A stretch of 32,257 nucleotides of DNA. Source: Oscillochloris sp. ZM17-4 (GTDB lineage: Bacteria > Chloroflexota > Chloroflexia > Chloroflexales > Chloroflexaceae). The notes beneath the pieces are model-generated. The model saw only the letters and a program-made list of their open reading frames with translations. It ran no database searches and was not told the origin of the DNA. The stretch lies in NCBI RefSeq assembly GCF_019599295.1, contig NZ_JAIEWN010000003.1:146263-178519 (forward strand). Reading direction: 5' to 3'. Positions 3,152-9,233 of this stretch are shown piece after piece (the stretch's first letter is position 1; each line of letters starts with the position of its first letter). A program made the translations under genes and the position numbers.

Positions 3152-4531
3152 ATGACGTTCAGGCTACACGAGATCCCGACGTCCCAGCCGGCATCACGCC
3201 CATCTCAGGAAACGAAGATGCCCAATATCCCGGCCCAGCCCAGCTCCATCGCCGATTCGGGGCTGTCGATGGGCTTCCTGACCGATCTGATCCTCAAGAT
3301 TATCTACTTCACCGGCGCGGTCACCGGCCAGCGCCTTGAGGAGATGACGAAGCTGCCCTTCCTCGGTATTATCGACAAGGTGCTGGAGTTCCTCAAGCTT
3401 GAGGAGTTTGTCGATATCATCGGCGCCGAGGGCGGCTTCAGCGAGCGCTCGTTCCAGTATGTGATCGCCAACAAGGGCCGGTCGAAGATCCTTGAGGTGC
3501 TGGAGCGCTCATCCTACGCCGGCCCCGCCCCGGTGCCCTTCCAGCAGTATATCGAGATGGTTCAGCGCCAGAACGTCGGCGAGATGGTGATCGACCAGGC
3601 CGCGATCCGCCAGGCCTTCAGCCACCTTGTGGTGAATGAGAAGATGCTTGATAAGATCGGGCCGGCCGCCAACTCGGCCCGCTCGCTCTTCCTCTATGGC
3701 CCGCCCGGCAACGGGAAGACGACGATCGCCGAGGGTATCTCCAACATGCTCGGCGGCTATGTCCTTATCCCCTACACTGTGGAGATCGACGGCCAGATCA
3801 TTAAGATCTTCGACCCGCTTAACCACCAGATCGTGCAGCAGAATGAGGTCGGCCACTCCGAGGTGGCCACGCCCTTCCCCGGCGCCCCGGCGCGCCAGAC
3901 GGCCCACAGCTTCCCCGATGCGCGCTGGGTTGTCTGCAAGCGCCCGCGCGTGGTGGTCGGCGGCGAGCTGATCCTTGAGCAGCTGGAGCTGATCTTCGAC
4001 CCGATCGCCAAGATCTATGAGGCCCCCTTCCAGATGAAGGCGAACGGCGGCCTCTTCCTGATCGACGACTTCGGCCGCCAGAAGTGCCGCCCCCAGGATC
4101 TGCTCAACCGCTGGATCGTGCCCCTGGAGAAGAAGTTTGACTACCTCGCCCTCCAGACCGGCAAGAAGCTCCAGGTGCCCTTCGATGTGCTGATCGTCTT
4201 CTCGACGAACCTGAACCCGAAGGATCTCGTCGATGACGCCTTCCTGCGCCGTATCCGCCACAAGATCGAGGTGCCCAACCCCTCGCCCGCGGAGTTCCGC
4301 GCGATCTTCCAGATCGTCTGCAAGCAGAAGAAGATCCCCTATAGCGACGACGGCCTGCGCCATCTGATCCAGGAGCACTATATGAAGGCCGGGCGCGACC
4401 TGCGCTCCTGCCACCCGCGCGACTTGTGCGATCAGATCCTCGATGAGGCGAAGTACCGGAGCATCGAGCCCGCGATGAATAAAGATCTGATAGACCGTGC
4501 CTGTGAGGCCTACTTCGTGAAACTTGGCTAG
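3152..4531 (+). CDS. AAA+ family ATPase
   Basis: Protein of 459 aa with one AAA+ module in its C-terminal two thirds. The Walker A motif GPPGNGKTT is near residues 183-191, a Walker B-like GGLFLIDD near 300-307, sensor-1 VFSTN near 350, and an arginine-finger-like LRRIRH near 366. The N-terminal 110 residues form a separate domain I do not recognise, with a hydrophobic stretch (FLTDLILKIIYFTGAV) that may be amphipathic or membrane-touching. The ATG has AAGGAGG 4 bases upstream and the gene has its own promoter. It is followed after 50 bases by a CpaF-type ATPase, so the two may act together in pilus or secretion assembly. That link is inference only. Confidence 0.8.
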   Translation: MTFRLHEIPTSQPASRPSQETKMPNIPAQPSSIADSGLSMGFLTDLILKIIYFTGAVTGQRLEEMTKLPFLGIIDKVLEFLKLEEFVDIIGAEGGFSERSFQYVIANKGRSKILEVLERSSYAGPAPVPFQQYIEMVQRQNVGEMVIDQAAIRQAFSHLVVNEKMLDKIGPAANSARSLFLYGPPGNGKTTIAEGISNMLGGYVLIPYTVEIDGQIIKIFDPLNHQIVQQNEVGHSEVATPFPGAPARQTAHSFPDARWVVCKRPRVVVGGELILEQLELIFDPIAKIYEAPFQMKANGGLFLIDDFGRQKCRPQDLLNRWIVPLEKKFDYLALQTGKKLQVPFDVLIVFSTNLNPKDLVDDAFLRRIRHKIEVPNPSPAEFRAIFQIVCKQKKIPYSDDGLRHLIQEHYMKAGRDLRSCHPRDLCDQILDEAKYRSIEPAMNKDLIDRACEAYFVKLG

Positions 4532-6074: not shown

Positions 6075-6135
6075 TGTAGGGCCGAAGCATTCGCCATTGG
6101 CGCGGAGCGCCAATGGCGAATGCTTCGGCCCTACA
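6075..6135. repeat. 29-bp perfect palindrome (dispersed-repeat type)
   Basis: Arms 6075-6103 and 6107-6135 are perfect reverse complements around a 3-base loop. The core GGCCGAAGCATTCGCC resembles small palindromic repeats that recur in intergenic gaps of many bacteria, cyanobacteria included. It fills nearly all of the gap between the CpaF gene and the desaturase gene. It could act as a transcription or processing hairpin, but no U-tract follows. Confidence 0.85.
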
Positions 6136-6143
6136 CTATATGT

Positions 6144-7646
6144 GTGACTTCCTTGAACGACCAGACAATCATCGTCGGCGCCGGCCTCGGCGGTCTCGCC
6201 GCCGCCATCCGTCTCGCCGCCGCCGGCTACCCAGTCACCCTGCTTGAGAAGAATGATCGCGTCGGCGGCAAGCTCAACCTCGTCCAGGAGCAGGGCTACA
6301 CCTTCGACACCGGCCCCTCGCTCCTGACGATGCCCTGGGTCATCCGCGAGCTCTTCACGGCCGCCGGGCGACGTATGGAGGACTACCTCAGCCTCGATCA
6401 GATCGAGCCGACCTGCCGCTACCTCTGGCCCGACGGCACGCGCTTCGACGCATGGCAGCGCCTCCCGCAGCTCATCCAGGAGATCGAGCGGGTTAGCCCC
6501 GGCGATGTCCCCGGCTTCTTCCGCTTCCTCGCTCACACCGCCGGGATCTACGACGCGGTGGCCGATAACTTTCTGCTCAAGCCCTTCGATGGTATCTCTG
6601 AGCTGATCACCCCGCGGCTGCTGCGCGACGGCCCGCGGATCGACGCGCTCCGCAACGTCGACGCGGCGGTGCGCGCCCACTTCCGCAGCCCCTACCTGCG
6701 CCAGATCTTCAACCGCTACGCCACCTACAACGGCTCGTCGCCCTACCTCTCGCCGGCGACCTTCAATGTGATCGCCTATATCGAGATGGCCGAGGGCGGC
6801 TGGTACGTGCGCGGCGGGATGTACGAGCTCGGCCGCTCCCTGCTGCGCCTCGCCGAGGAGCTCGGCGTGCAGGTGCGCACCGGCGCCGCCGTGGCCGAGG
6901 TGCTGCTTGAGGGCGGCGCCGCGCGCGGGGTACATCTGTCCTGCGGCGAGCGTATCCCCGCCGCCCGCGTGATCGTCAACGCCGACCCGCGCTACGCCTA
7001 TGCGGCGCTCCTCCCTGGTCAGAGGCGCACCGCCGCCCGCCTCGCCCGTCTGGAGCCCTCCTGTAGCGGCTACGTGCTCTTCCTGGGCGTCGATCACACC
7101 TACCCGCAGCTGGCCCACCATAACATCTTCTTCAGTGCCGACTACCCGCGTGAGTTTCAGGCGATCTTCCAGAAGGGTGTGCCCGCCGTCGACCCCACCG
7201 TCTATGTGGCCGCGACCTGCCTGGGCGACCCGCAGCACGCCCCGCCCGGCCATATGAACCTCTTCGTCCTGGTCAATGCCCCCGCCCTCGGACCGCGCGT
7301 GCGCTGGGGGCGTGAGTCCGCGCCCTACCGCGACCTGGTGCTGGCCAAGCTCGAGCGCATGGGCCTGTCCGACCTGCGCAGCCATATTGTGTACGAGCAG
7401 ATATGGACCCCGGCGGACATCCAGGACCGCTACAACGCCGCCGGCGGCGCGATCTACGGCCTTGCCTCGAACAACCCCTTCTCGGCCTTCATGCGCCCGC
7501 CGCTGCGCGCCCATGGCCTGCGCGACCTCTACTTCGTCGGCGGCGGCACGCATCCGGGCGGCGGCATCCCGCTCGTGCTGCTCTCCGGCAAGGCGATCAC
7601 CGAGCGCGTTGTCGCTGATGCTCCAAGAAACACTTTACACATTTAA
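6144..7646 (+). CDS. crtI: Phytoene desaturase family protein (CrtI type)
   Basis: FAD-dependent carotenoid desaturase or oxidase of about 500 aa that acts on membrane carotenoids. The dinucleotide-binding motif VGAGLGGLAAAIRLAAAG is near the N-terminus, followed by EKNDRVGGK. The C-terminal family signature GGGTHPGGGIPLVLLSGK is intact. The reading frame stays open far upstream through the cpaF gene, but homology begins at TIIVGAGLGG. I therefore place the start at GTG 6144, just after the palindrome; TTG 6153 is an alternative. No strong Shine-Dalgarno site is seen. Exact chemistry cannot be assigned: a CrtN, CrtP or CrtD type is possible. A carotenoid gene fits a pigmented Chloroflexia, and no other carotenoid gene is adjacent. 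Confidence 0.83.
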   Translation: MTSLNDQTIIVGAGLGGLAAAIRLAAAGYPVTLLEKNDRVGGKLNLVQEQGYTFDTGPSLLTMPWVIRELFTAAGRRMEDYLSLDQIEPTCRYLWPDGTRFDAWQRLPQLIQEIERVSPGDVPGFFRFLAHTAGIYDAVADNFLLKPFDGISELITPRLLRDGPRIDALRNVDAAVRAHFRSPYLRQIFNRYATYNGSSPYLSPATFNVIAYIEMAEGGWYVRGGMYELGRSLLRLAEELGVQVRTGAAVAEVLLEGGAARGVHLSCGERIPAARVIVNADPRYAYAALLPGQRRTAARLARLEPSCSGYVLFLGVDHTYPQLAHHNIFFSADYPREFQAIFQKGVPAVDPTVYVAATCLGDPQHAPPGHMNLFVLVNAPALGPRVRWGRESAPYRDLVLAKLERMGLSDLRSHIVYEQIWTPADIQDRYNAAGGAIYGLASNNPFSAFMRPPLRAHGLRDLYFVGGGTHPGGGIPLVLLSGKAITERVVADAPRNTLHI

Positions 7647-7688: not shown

Positions 7689-7742
7689 TCGCTGGGGAGC
7701 CTCGTAATCTTGGCCTATCATCGTTAATATGCGATAGACTAC

Positions 7743-7771
7743 TTGATTTTAGTGCGTCACAGTGCTATTAT
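7743..7771 (+). promoter_or_regulatory. Sigma-70-like promoter of the candidate ncRNA
   Basis: TTGATT (7743-7748), a 17-bp spacer and TATTAT (7766-7771). The predicted start is near 7778. No start codon with a ribosome-binding site and a credible protein follows, which points to an untranslated transcript. Confidence 0.5.
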
Positions 7772-7777
7772 AGCCAC

Positions 7778-8364
7778 GAAGCCTCAAGAGAACAGCAACT
7801 GACCAGTGAACCTGTACAGCCGAACATGTGCAGCCGGATGGTAAGCGCTGAACCCCACTGTAAAGTGATTTACGTGGACGACGCGTACGTTAGGTGAAAT
7901 GACCGGGCATGTCGCCCGCTCAAGGAGACTAACAGACAAGCGCCAGGTCGCTGAGGAGCGACCGGATGCTCTGCGAACCAGATGGTGCCTCCAGTGCAAA
8001 GCTCACAGCGTACGGGACAAAAAAGAACCCTACGCACAGACGGAGCCACACCCAAAGGCAAAAGCTGACAGAGCGACTGTCGCACACACCGCCATACGGC
8101 AGGAGATGACATAATCGCTCCTTGGAGAGCAGCTTGAGGGGTCTGCAGCGGATAAGTAGGCGGGCAGCGAAACACAAACGGCGAAGCTGGTCTCTTGAGG
8201 CGTCAAGCTTGGACGCTCGGAAGACGGACGACCTGTACGCTCAGCGGATGGATCACGAACGGACTTCGGACGGACGTAGCAAGACACGTATAAAAGAGGA
8301 AAAAGCCGAGAAAATCTCAAACACAAAGGGGCCGCAGGCACGAGTGCCTGCGGCCCCTTTGTGT
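7778..8364 (+). ncRNA. Candidate long structured non-coding RNA
   Basis: About 590 bases between a promoter and a 21-bp inverted repeat, with no convincing protein gene. The small open frames here lack any family, good start or neighbour-like codon use, and the stretch is visibly less GC-rich than the genes around it. Short hairpins recur: 7812-7818/7827-7833, 7855-7864/7869-7877 (one bulged U, GTGA loop), 7904-7908/7914-7918, 7946-7952/7957-7963 (7 bp, GAGG loop) and 8194-8198/8203-8207 (GGCG loop). The 3' part (8283-8325) is A-rich and single-stranded-looking. I see no RNase P, tmRNA, SRP or 6S signatures. Decayed mobile DNA or a plain spacer remains possible. Confidence 0.4.
8321..8364. 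terminator. 21-bp inverted repeat, probably a bidirectional terminator
   Basis: ACACAAAGGGGCCGCAGGCAC (8321-8341) is perfectly complementary to 8344-8364, leaving two unpaired bases. It lies 5 bases beyond the stop of the - strand reductase and at the end of the + strand ncRNA candidate, so it could end transcription from both sides. The stem carries short A and T runs at its base (CCCCTTTGTGT), but no long U-tract. Confidence 0.65.
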
Positions 8365-8369
8365 GCGGA

Positions 8370-9119
8370 TCAGCCCGACATCCTCCAGCCGCCATCGACC
8401 GCGAGGGTGTGGCCGGTGATGTAGGAGGCCATCGGCGATGCGAGAAAGAGCACCGCCGATGACACCTCTTCGGGGCGGCCAGCCCGGCGCATCGCGATGA
8501 TCTCCTCACCCCAGGCCCGCACCTCGTCCGGCAGCACGTCGAGCTGCTCCGTCTCGACAAAGCCTGGCGCCACGGCGTTGACCGTGATCGACCAGGCGGC
8601 GGCCTCACGGGCGAGCGAGCGCGTGAACCCGAGGACGCCGGCCGTGGCCGCCGAGTAGTCGGCCTGGCCTGGGAACCCGCCGTTGGCGTGGAGCGCCGAG
8701 AGGTTGACGATTCGCCCGTAGCGGCGCTGCATCATCGGCCGCAGGGCCGCGCGGCAGGTGTGGTAGACGCCGGTGAGGTTCGTGGCGATGCTCTCTCGCC
8801 AGCGCTCGCTACTCATCGTCTCGATGGCACCATAGCCGACCCGCCCGGCGCAGTTCACCAGAATATCCAGTTGCCCCCAGCGATTGAGGGCGGCCCCCAC
8901 GAGCGCTGCGCCTGTGGCTGGGTCGGAGACATCGGCCTGCATCGCCTCGGCCACGCCGCCCGCATCCGCCACGATCTTCTGGGTCTCGGCCGCCGCCGCC
9001 GCCCGCTCACGATAGCAGAACAGCACGCGTGCCCCGCGACGGGCGAGCTCGCGCACAACGGCGCGGCCGATCCCCCGCGATCCACCGGTGACGATCGCCA
9101 CCTGCCCCGTGAATTCCAT
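8370..9119 (-). CDS. SDR-family reductase, FabG-like, catalytic Lys replaced
   Basis: Short-chain dehydrogenase/reductase of 249 aa, close to 3-oxoacyl-ACP reductases. The NADP-binding motif TGGSRGIGRA is at 11-20, the structural NCAG near 89-92, Asn114 in NLTG, Ser141 and Tyr155. The usual YxxxK, however, reads YSAAT: residue 159 is Thr (codon ACG, one base from Lys AAG). The family uses that Lys to position cofactor and lower the Tyr pKa, so activity is doubtful unless this is a sequencing error. The C-terminal ITGHTLAVDGGW is normal. It is last in the fab cluster, 119 bases after a paralogous fabG. Start ATG has AAGGAC close by. Confidence 0.85.
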   Translation of the reverse strand: MEFTGQVAIVTGGSRGIGRAVVRELARRGARVLFCYRERAAAAAETQKIVADAGGVAEAMQADVSDPATGAALVGAALNRWGQLDILVNCAGRVGYGAIETMSSERWRESIATNLTGVYHTCRAALRPMMQRRYGRIVNLSALHANGGFPGQADYSAATAGVLGFTRSLAREAAAWSITVNAVAPGFVETEQLDVLPDEVRAWGEEIIAMRRAGRPEEVSSAVLFLASPMASYITGHTLAVDGGWRMSG

Positions 9120-9191: not shown

Positions 9192-9233
9192 TCAACACTC
9201 AACACTCAACACTCAACACTCAACACTCAACAC
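9192..9233. repeat. Six perfect tandem heptamers (TCAACAC)
   Basis: The unit TCAACAC is repeated six times without mismatch from 9192 to 9233, between the two reductase genes. The array starts 5 bases outside the stop of the upstream fabG gene (which ends at 9239). It belongs to the 7-base-period repeats seen at several gaps in this window. Confidence 0.95.

Follow-up and report, generated by a model that had tools for sequence, protein, structure and literature searches.

6S RNA, RNase P RNA and tmRNA are transcribed independently and act in trans, and RNase P RNA and tmRNA further resemble the Chloroflexales RNA described here in their length and in having paired ends. Bacterial RNAs of this size and structural conservation are rare, and several of them have proved to be central machines. 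OLE (ornate, large, extremophilic) RNA is reported to be a large, structured RNA with conserved sequence blocks whose exact biochemical function remains open; the Chloroflexales RNA is like it in being a large, structured RNA with conserved blocks that belongs to one bacterial group (PMC9723947; PMC12054373). The two differ, however, in that OLE RNA is about 600 nucleotides (nts) long and resides mostly in Bacillota, whereas the Chloroflexales RNA has no Rfam match, and no sequence common to both was found. GOLLD and ROOL are reported to be large, ornate bacterial RNAs, and the likeness to the Chloroflexales RNA lies in this size and in their elaborate folds (PMC12286853). Unlike them, the Chloroflexales RNA is a chromosomal gene with conserved neighbours, again without an Rfam match, and no phage, plasmid or viral copy of it was found. 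The Chloroflexi-1 motif (RF01698) is listed as a candidate structured RNA from Chloroflexus aggregans (PMC2864571). It differs from the present RNA in that RF01698 has no match in the window, by which we mean the whole 32,257-nt stretch of DNA analysed, nor in any of the seven relative loci scanned, among which one comes from a presumed C. aggregans genome. As a kind of molecule, a large trans-encoded RNA has precedents; at the level of the RNA family this one is new, since no described family sharing its sequence or fold was found. The searchable literature, which is incomplete and in which a 2017 survey of 224 candidate RNAs was not covered, yielded no paper describing it.

That an undescribed structured RNA gene sits at this locus, and is real, is virtually certain. 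It occurs in a single copy in its genome and lies between a carotenoid desaturase gene and a reductase gene, with the following features in and around it:

6096–7646, + strand: CrtI-family carotenoid desaturase, the upstream neighbour (PF01593, TIGR02734; start codon undetermined, frame open from 5616)
7633–7639, no strand assigned: CTTTACA element, upstream of the dyad at a constant spacing; the UGUAAAG loop in the RNA is its complement; function unproven
7720–7735, + strand: dyad ATCGTTAATATGCGAT, upstream of the promoter and centred at about −50; at a fixed place in 41/41 loci
7743–7771, + strand: promoter, with −35 TTGATT, 17-bp spacer and extended −10 TGCTATTAT, from a promoter scan and recurrence in relatives
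7777–8205, + strand: RNA body, about 425 nts, from conservation and covariation, its ends inferred from the promoter, helix P1 and T-runs behind P1 in relatives
8206–8320, + strand: 3′ tail, repetitive, A-rich at its end; sequence aligns within the genus only
8321–8341/8344–8364, no strand assigned: perfect 21-bp inverted repeat, with a T-rich stretch on the − strand side
8370–9119, − strand: SDR-family reductase (PF13561), the convergent neighbour, present at many loci but missing from others

The 5′ end of the RNA is predicted to lie 6–9 nts past the −10 box, and its 3′ end directly behind the 3′ strand of P1. Because the promoter arrangement is fixed relative to the 5′ strand of P1, the body most likely starts at about 7777–7780. 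Both the exact ends and expression are inferred, and no transcript has been shown. The first-pass annotation of this DNA had proposed an undescribed structured RNA of about 590 nts that ended at 8364. The candidate itself is supported, being kept in relatives with a full-length structure that covaries, but its extent has to be revised: the conserved RNA measures only about 425 nts, and the 3′ boundary was placed too far downstream, since P1 closes the body at 8201. The A-rich 3′ region and the 21-bp repeat, which had been counted as part of the RNA, do exist, the repeat being 100% complementary, but both fall outside the conserved body. The lower GC content and A-richness remarked on at the outset are borne out (GC of 0.47–0.60, where the neighbours have about 0.70, and an AT skew as high as +0.48), as is the absence of a credible protein: none of the open frames keeps a constant position throughout the 27 homologs compared. 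Most of the indels that separate close relatives have lengths not divisible by three. With no reading frame conserved, a protein gene was rejected.

The stretch folds better than all of its shuffles, with a z of −7.0 when the terminal hairpin is included and −3.6 when it is left out, and the well-formed hairpins seen in the first pass are confirmed as helices by covariation in relatives. Single-sequence folding returned a z of −4.9 for 7778–8206 and of −5.2 for the RNA of a genome that we presume to be C. aurantiacus; folded independently, these two distant members both close with P1. Alignment A2, comprising 36 sequences of families f1, f4 and f2 over a 33-pair structure, has 94.4% of its cells paired and changes on both sides in 23 of the 33 pairs, and pairing drops to 35–41% when the partners are slid by 1–3 columns. 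Alignment A3, with 27 full-length sequences and a 63-pair structure, is 93.9% paired. In both alignments, none of 500 shuffles reached the covariation score (0/500 each). The A3 counts favour the chosen helices, because these were selected on the same alignment. A covariation scan of A3 revealed helices not recovered by energy folding alone, most notably P3, within the following set, all on the + strand:

7781–7790/8192–8201: P1, joining both ends; 98% of cells paired, compensatory changes in two pairs within Chloroflexaceae
7819–7821/8159–8161: P2; compensatory changes in 3/3 pairs, 85% paired
7830–7835/7984–7988: P3, closing the core domain; compensatory changes in 5/6 pairs, the strongest signal of the covariation scan
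7845–7848/7883–7886: P4, from the covariation alignment
7853–7856/7875–7878: P4b, from the covariation alignment
7859–7865: UGUAAAG loop, within P4/P4b
7889–7893/7929–7933: P5; 100% paired, with UA, CG and GC types
7900–7902/7920–7922: P6, which with P5 flanks a conserved internal loop, GGGGAAA/GGGAGAC
7939–7970: P7 hairpin, the most conserved sequence of the RNA; 99% paired, six pairs with compensatory changes
8001–8004/8043–8046: P8; no compensatory changes in A3, hence weaker
8008–8011/8032–8035: P9; compensatory changes in 3/4 pairs
8064–8067/8130–8133: P10
8071–8073/8118–8120: P10b; compensatory changes in 3/3 pairs

The best conserved part of the RNA is the P3 domain with its P5/P7 core. 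P1 is maintained by pairing and not by sequence in three loci (L065–L067), where its strands differ but still pair. The fold is supported by covariation. Were there no RNA gene here, but merely a conserved DNA element or a decayed sequence that folds by chance, the conservation of the dyad and of CTTTACA, both of which look DNA-like, would be accounted for, but not the compensatory changes in 32 of the 63 A3 pairs, against which slid controls fall far lower (33–41% paired), nor the conservation over four families of the order of a single-copy sequence without mobile-element relatives; we leave that explanation next to no chance. Mobile or repeated DNA was rejected as well, on the single copy and the lack of relatives in phage, plasmid and viral records, collections in which nothing related to the RNA was found.

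The structured RNA is widespread within its order. A sequence search of 60 relatives located it in the five other genomes of the genus, at 75–84% identity, and in the majority of those of the family. Covariance model R1, built on the RNA core from 30 sequences and run on 158 genomes of the class, matched strongly in 45 of them, namely in 35 of the 41 genomes of the window's own family (f1), nine of f4 and one of f2. Model R2, which includes distant members, contributed five more genomes, four of f2 and one of f3, so that homologs are found in 50 Chloroflexales genomes from four families. Run with stricter filters on 400 genomes drawn from the whole phylum, R2 found the RNA in none outside the order. 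A scan for the core pattern covering one genome per species (84,980 species) encountered it in Oscillochloris, the genus of the nearest relatives, and in Chloroploca, Chloroflexus, Roseiflexus and Kouleothrix; its matches in other phyla (Massilia, Shewanella and others) are attributed to chance, as the covariance model does not recognise them. Among the bearers are genomes that we take to be those of well-studied phototrophs in culture, namely C. aurantiacus J-10-fl, C. aggregans DSM 9485 and Roseiflexus RS-1. The first-pass annotation had named a lack of conservation in related genomes as one outcome that would refute it, and this did not materialise. Several genomes of the order have no detectable copy, so the RNA is not universally essential. 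One contig filed under Candidatus Gracilibacteria also carries the RNA (L095, 5826–6012, 139.7 bits); it may correspond to a contig of a Chloroflexaceae genome (G021:C158) and looks misnamed or mis-binned.

None of this conservation can be credited to a known family. Searched at the gathering score of each family, the 4227 models of Rfam 15, among them 6S RNA, RNase P RNA, tmRNA, SRP RNA, OLE, GOLLD, ROOL and HEARO, gave no family at the RNA, either in the window or in 14 relative loci. When the region was searched permissively, the only matches were sub-threshold, and each lay on the terminal hairpin or extended into it. RNase P RNA, tmRNA and 6S RNA, whose cores the first pass already reported missing, indeed give no Rfam match here, and the Chloroflexales RNA is set apart from all three by their presence at other loci of the same genome: the genome's only match to RNase P RNA (RF00010) is on contig C128, at 64.8 bits; tmRNA (RF00023) scores 164 bits on C115, with none at the RNA locus; and 6S RNA (RF00013) scores 54 bits on C128. 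Because each lies elsewhere, an aberrant version of any of the three is rejected. A match to a known RNA family or to decayed transposon DNA, which would likewise have overturned the original proposal, was looked for and did not appear.

The size and complexity of the RNA, together with the invariant unpaired positions of its core, raise the question of a ribozyme, in which the P5 internal loop (GGGGAAA/GGGAGAC) and P7 would catalyse cleavage or another reaction. That the core recurs in a second, Roseiflexus-type RNA with a different P1 and promoter would agree with this. Conservation of unpaired bases is, however, equally expected from protein binding, no Rfam ribozyme family matches, and there are no activity data; catalysis is accorded only a slim chance.

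The proposed −35 box TTGATT (7743–7748), 17-bp spacer and −10 box TATTAT (7766–7771) are confirmed, with the addition of an extended −10 TG. A scan of the stretch found no sigma-70-like site besides this promoter (expected number 0.3), and the promoter recurs in the homologous loci. Across 41 loci, the dyad has the form ATCGTTAA-N4-CGAT in most and ATCGTCAA or ATCGTAAA in a few; it stands 7 nts from the −35 box (10–11 in some f4 loci), the spacer measures 16–18 nts, the extended −10 reads TGCTATNAT or nearly so (CGTATCAT in one locus), and the 5′ strand of P1 follows about 6–9 nts on. The f2 and f3 loci show a similar arrangement of dyad and promoter, as judged by eye. The exact dyad is nearly private to the RNA: eight genomes contain one to four copies each, usually only at the RNA locus, and in the window genome the sole exact copy is the one at the RNA. 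The dyad is a probable site for a regulator or activator.

Further upstream, CTTTACA lies about 87 nts before the dyad in most Chloroflexaceae loci, wherever the desaturase stops, and the complementary UGUAAA lies near +82 of the RNA; element and loop are both missing in Roseiflexaceae-type loci. This joint occurrence, a complementarity that reaches 13 bases in one locus (L028), and a desaturase gene that precedes the RNA in the same orientation at 41 of 46 loci invite the interpretation that the RNA regulates the desaturase in cis, its loop pairing with CUUUACA near the end of the mRNA and affecting stability or termination. The pairing is unproven, because the flanking bases do not covary, and some loci have mismatches. 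The spacing of CTTTACA is fixed to the promoter and not to the stop codon, and the element falls partly outside the coding end of the mRNA, as a DNA element might; the upstream copy may be just that. With a promoter of its own besides, an RNA that persists away from the desaturase, and desaturase orthologs that lack it, regulation in cis appears rather unlikely.

Directly downstream of the desaturase and on its strand in those 41 of 46 loci, the RNA keeps this order in Roseiflexus-type genomes and in f2 genomes without a detected reaction-centre gene, but stands apart from the desaturase in five loci (L015, L018, L025, L164 and L168), and several genomes have orthologous desaturases without such an RNA downstream. 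The genes that follow it vary in kind and strand, and many are convergent. Since RNA and desaturase are separable and the downstream genes vary, the RNA is an independent gene with conserved synteny, neither a 3′ UTR nor a leader. A leader RNA or riboswitch for the downstream gene could be imagined for the few genomes with same-strand open frames within about 0.7 kb (L069, L164, L166), but in the window, as at many other loci, the gene that follows is convergent, its kind is not constant, and P1 closes the molecule with a T-run behind it in several families, so that transcription probably ends there; we think a leader very unlikely. A riboswitch or leader should consistently precede one kind of gene in the same orientation, which this RNA does not. 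It has two of the features expected of an independently transcribed ncRNA gene, namely a structure with compensatory changes and its own promoter at the 5′ end of that structure (41/41 loci by sequence), while the third, a discrete transcript, is inferred. Conservation, covariation, a conserved promoter of its own and separability from its neighbour are established for the RNA.

Most RNA-bearing genomes encode a type II photosynthetic reaction centre, but the RNA is also present where none was detected (G007, G045, G059 and five f2 genomes), and in G072 the reaction-centre match is sub-threshold only. As a strict marker of phototrophy the RNA was rejected, some bearers lacking a reaction centre and several phototrophs lacking the RNA. 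Its neighbourhood with a carotenoid desaturase weakly suggests the membrane or pigment apparatus, and the RNA, kept with its own promoter across an order of mostly light-harvesting bacteria, offers a testable link, or the absence of one, to carotenoid and phototrophic physiology. Two side observations concern the surroundings: a CAACACT unit is repeated about five times in tandem between two convergent SDR genes of the window (9194–9233), and in two Roseiflexaceae-type loci SAM riboswitches lie a few kilobases off, on the strand opposite the RNA (L065, 3880–3988; L071, 3443–3578).

Taken whole, a new large structured ncRNA gene with its own promoter that encodes the RNA of a trans-acting ribonucleoprotein is the likely reading. 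Expression, action in trans and a protein partner are inferences, and no partner has been identified. By analogy with large RNAs such as OLE, action in trans seems quite likely, and on the same analogy it is reasonably likely that the RNA is part of a ribonucleoprotein (PMC12054373; PMC9723947). RNA polymerase would start at the extended −10 promoter beneath the nearly private dyad, which would set when the RNA is made, and the transcript would begin at the 5′ strand of P1. In the resulting molecule of about 425 nts, P1 would join the ends around a multi-helix body, P2–P10, with the conserved unpaired A-rich strands as putative contact sites. The product would then act in trans within a ribonucleoprotein, in the manner of 6S, RNase P and OLE RNAs. 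A local role, too, would be compatible with the desaturase lying upstream in 41 of 46 loci. An order-wide Chloroflexales RNA machine of OLE- or RNase P-like complexity, having its own core as catalyst or ribonucleoprotein scaffold and a divergent second version of Roseiflexus type, may be entertained but is doubtful. Whichever function applies, the alignment and covariance model define a new RNA family.

Beyond the conserved body, a terminator scan of the stretch found none, and the perfect inverted repeat has no U-run on the + strand. Given this lack and the end of the convergent reductase at 8370, the hairpin is probably, by inference, a shared terminator. In several other lineages, a T-run directly follows the 3′ strand of P1 (L032, L065, L166, L167, L168), which suggests that P1 itself aids termination and that the ancestral RNA stops there. 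The tail may belong to the RNA or be an element of its own. It changes fast between genera (8206–8320 in the window; the stretch behind P1 in L009–L025) and contains internal repeats such as GTACGCACGTCGGTAACC in g5 and ACGGACTTCGGACGGACG in g1.

A second, divergent RNA that shares the core occurs in Roseiflexus-type genomes, at 3974–4129 of L158 (G042:C1:3251473–3251628) and in L159–L163. Its core elements are CAAGCG and GUAAG..GGGAAACG / GGGGAGACCAGC, and it has its own promoter (TTGTAA-17-TATACT) and its own P1 (CGCCCUGAC/GUCAGGGCG). It lies upstream of a long frame on the same strand, which in L158 encodes M50-peptidase and cNMP-binding domains. One genome, G054, bears this second version only.
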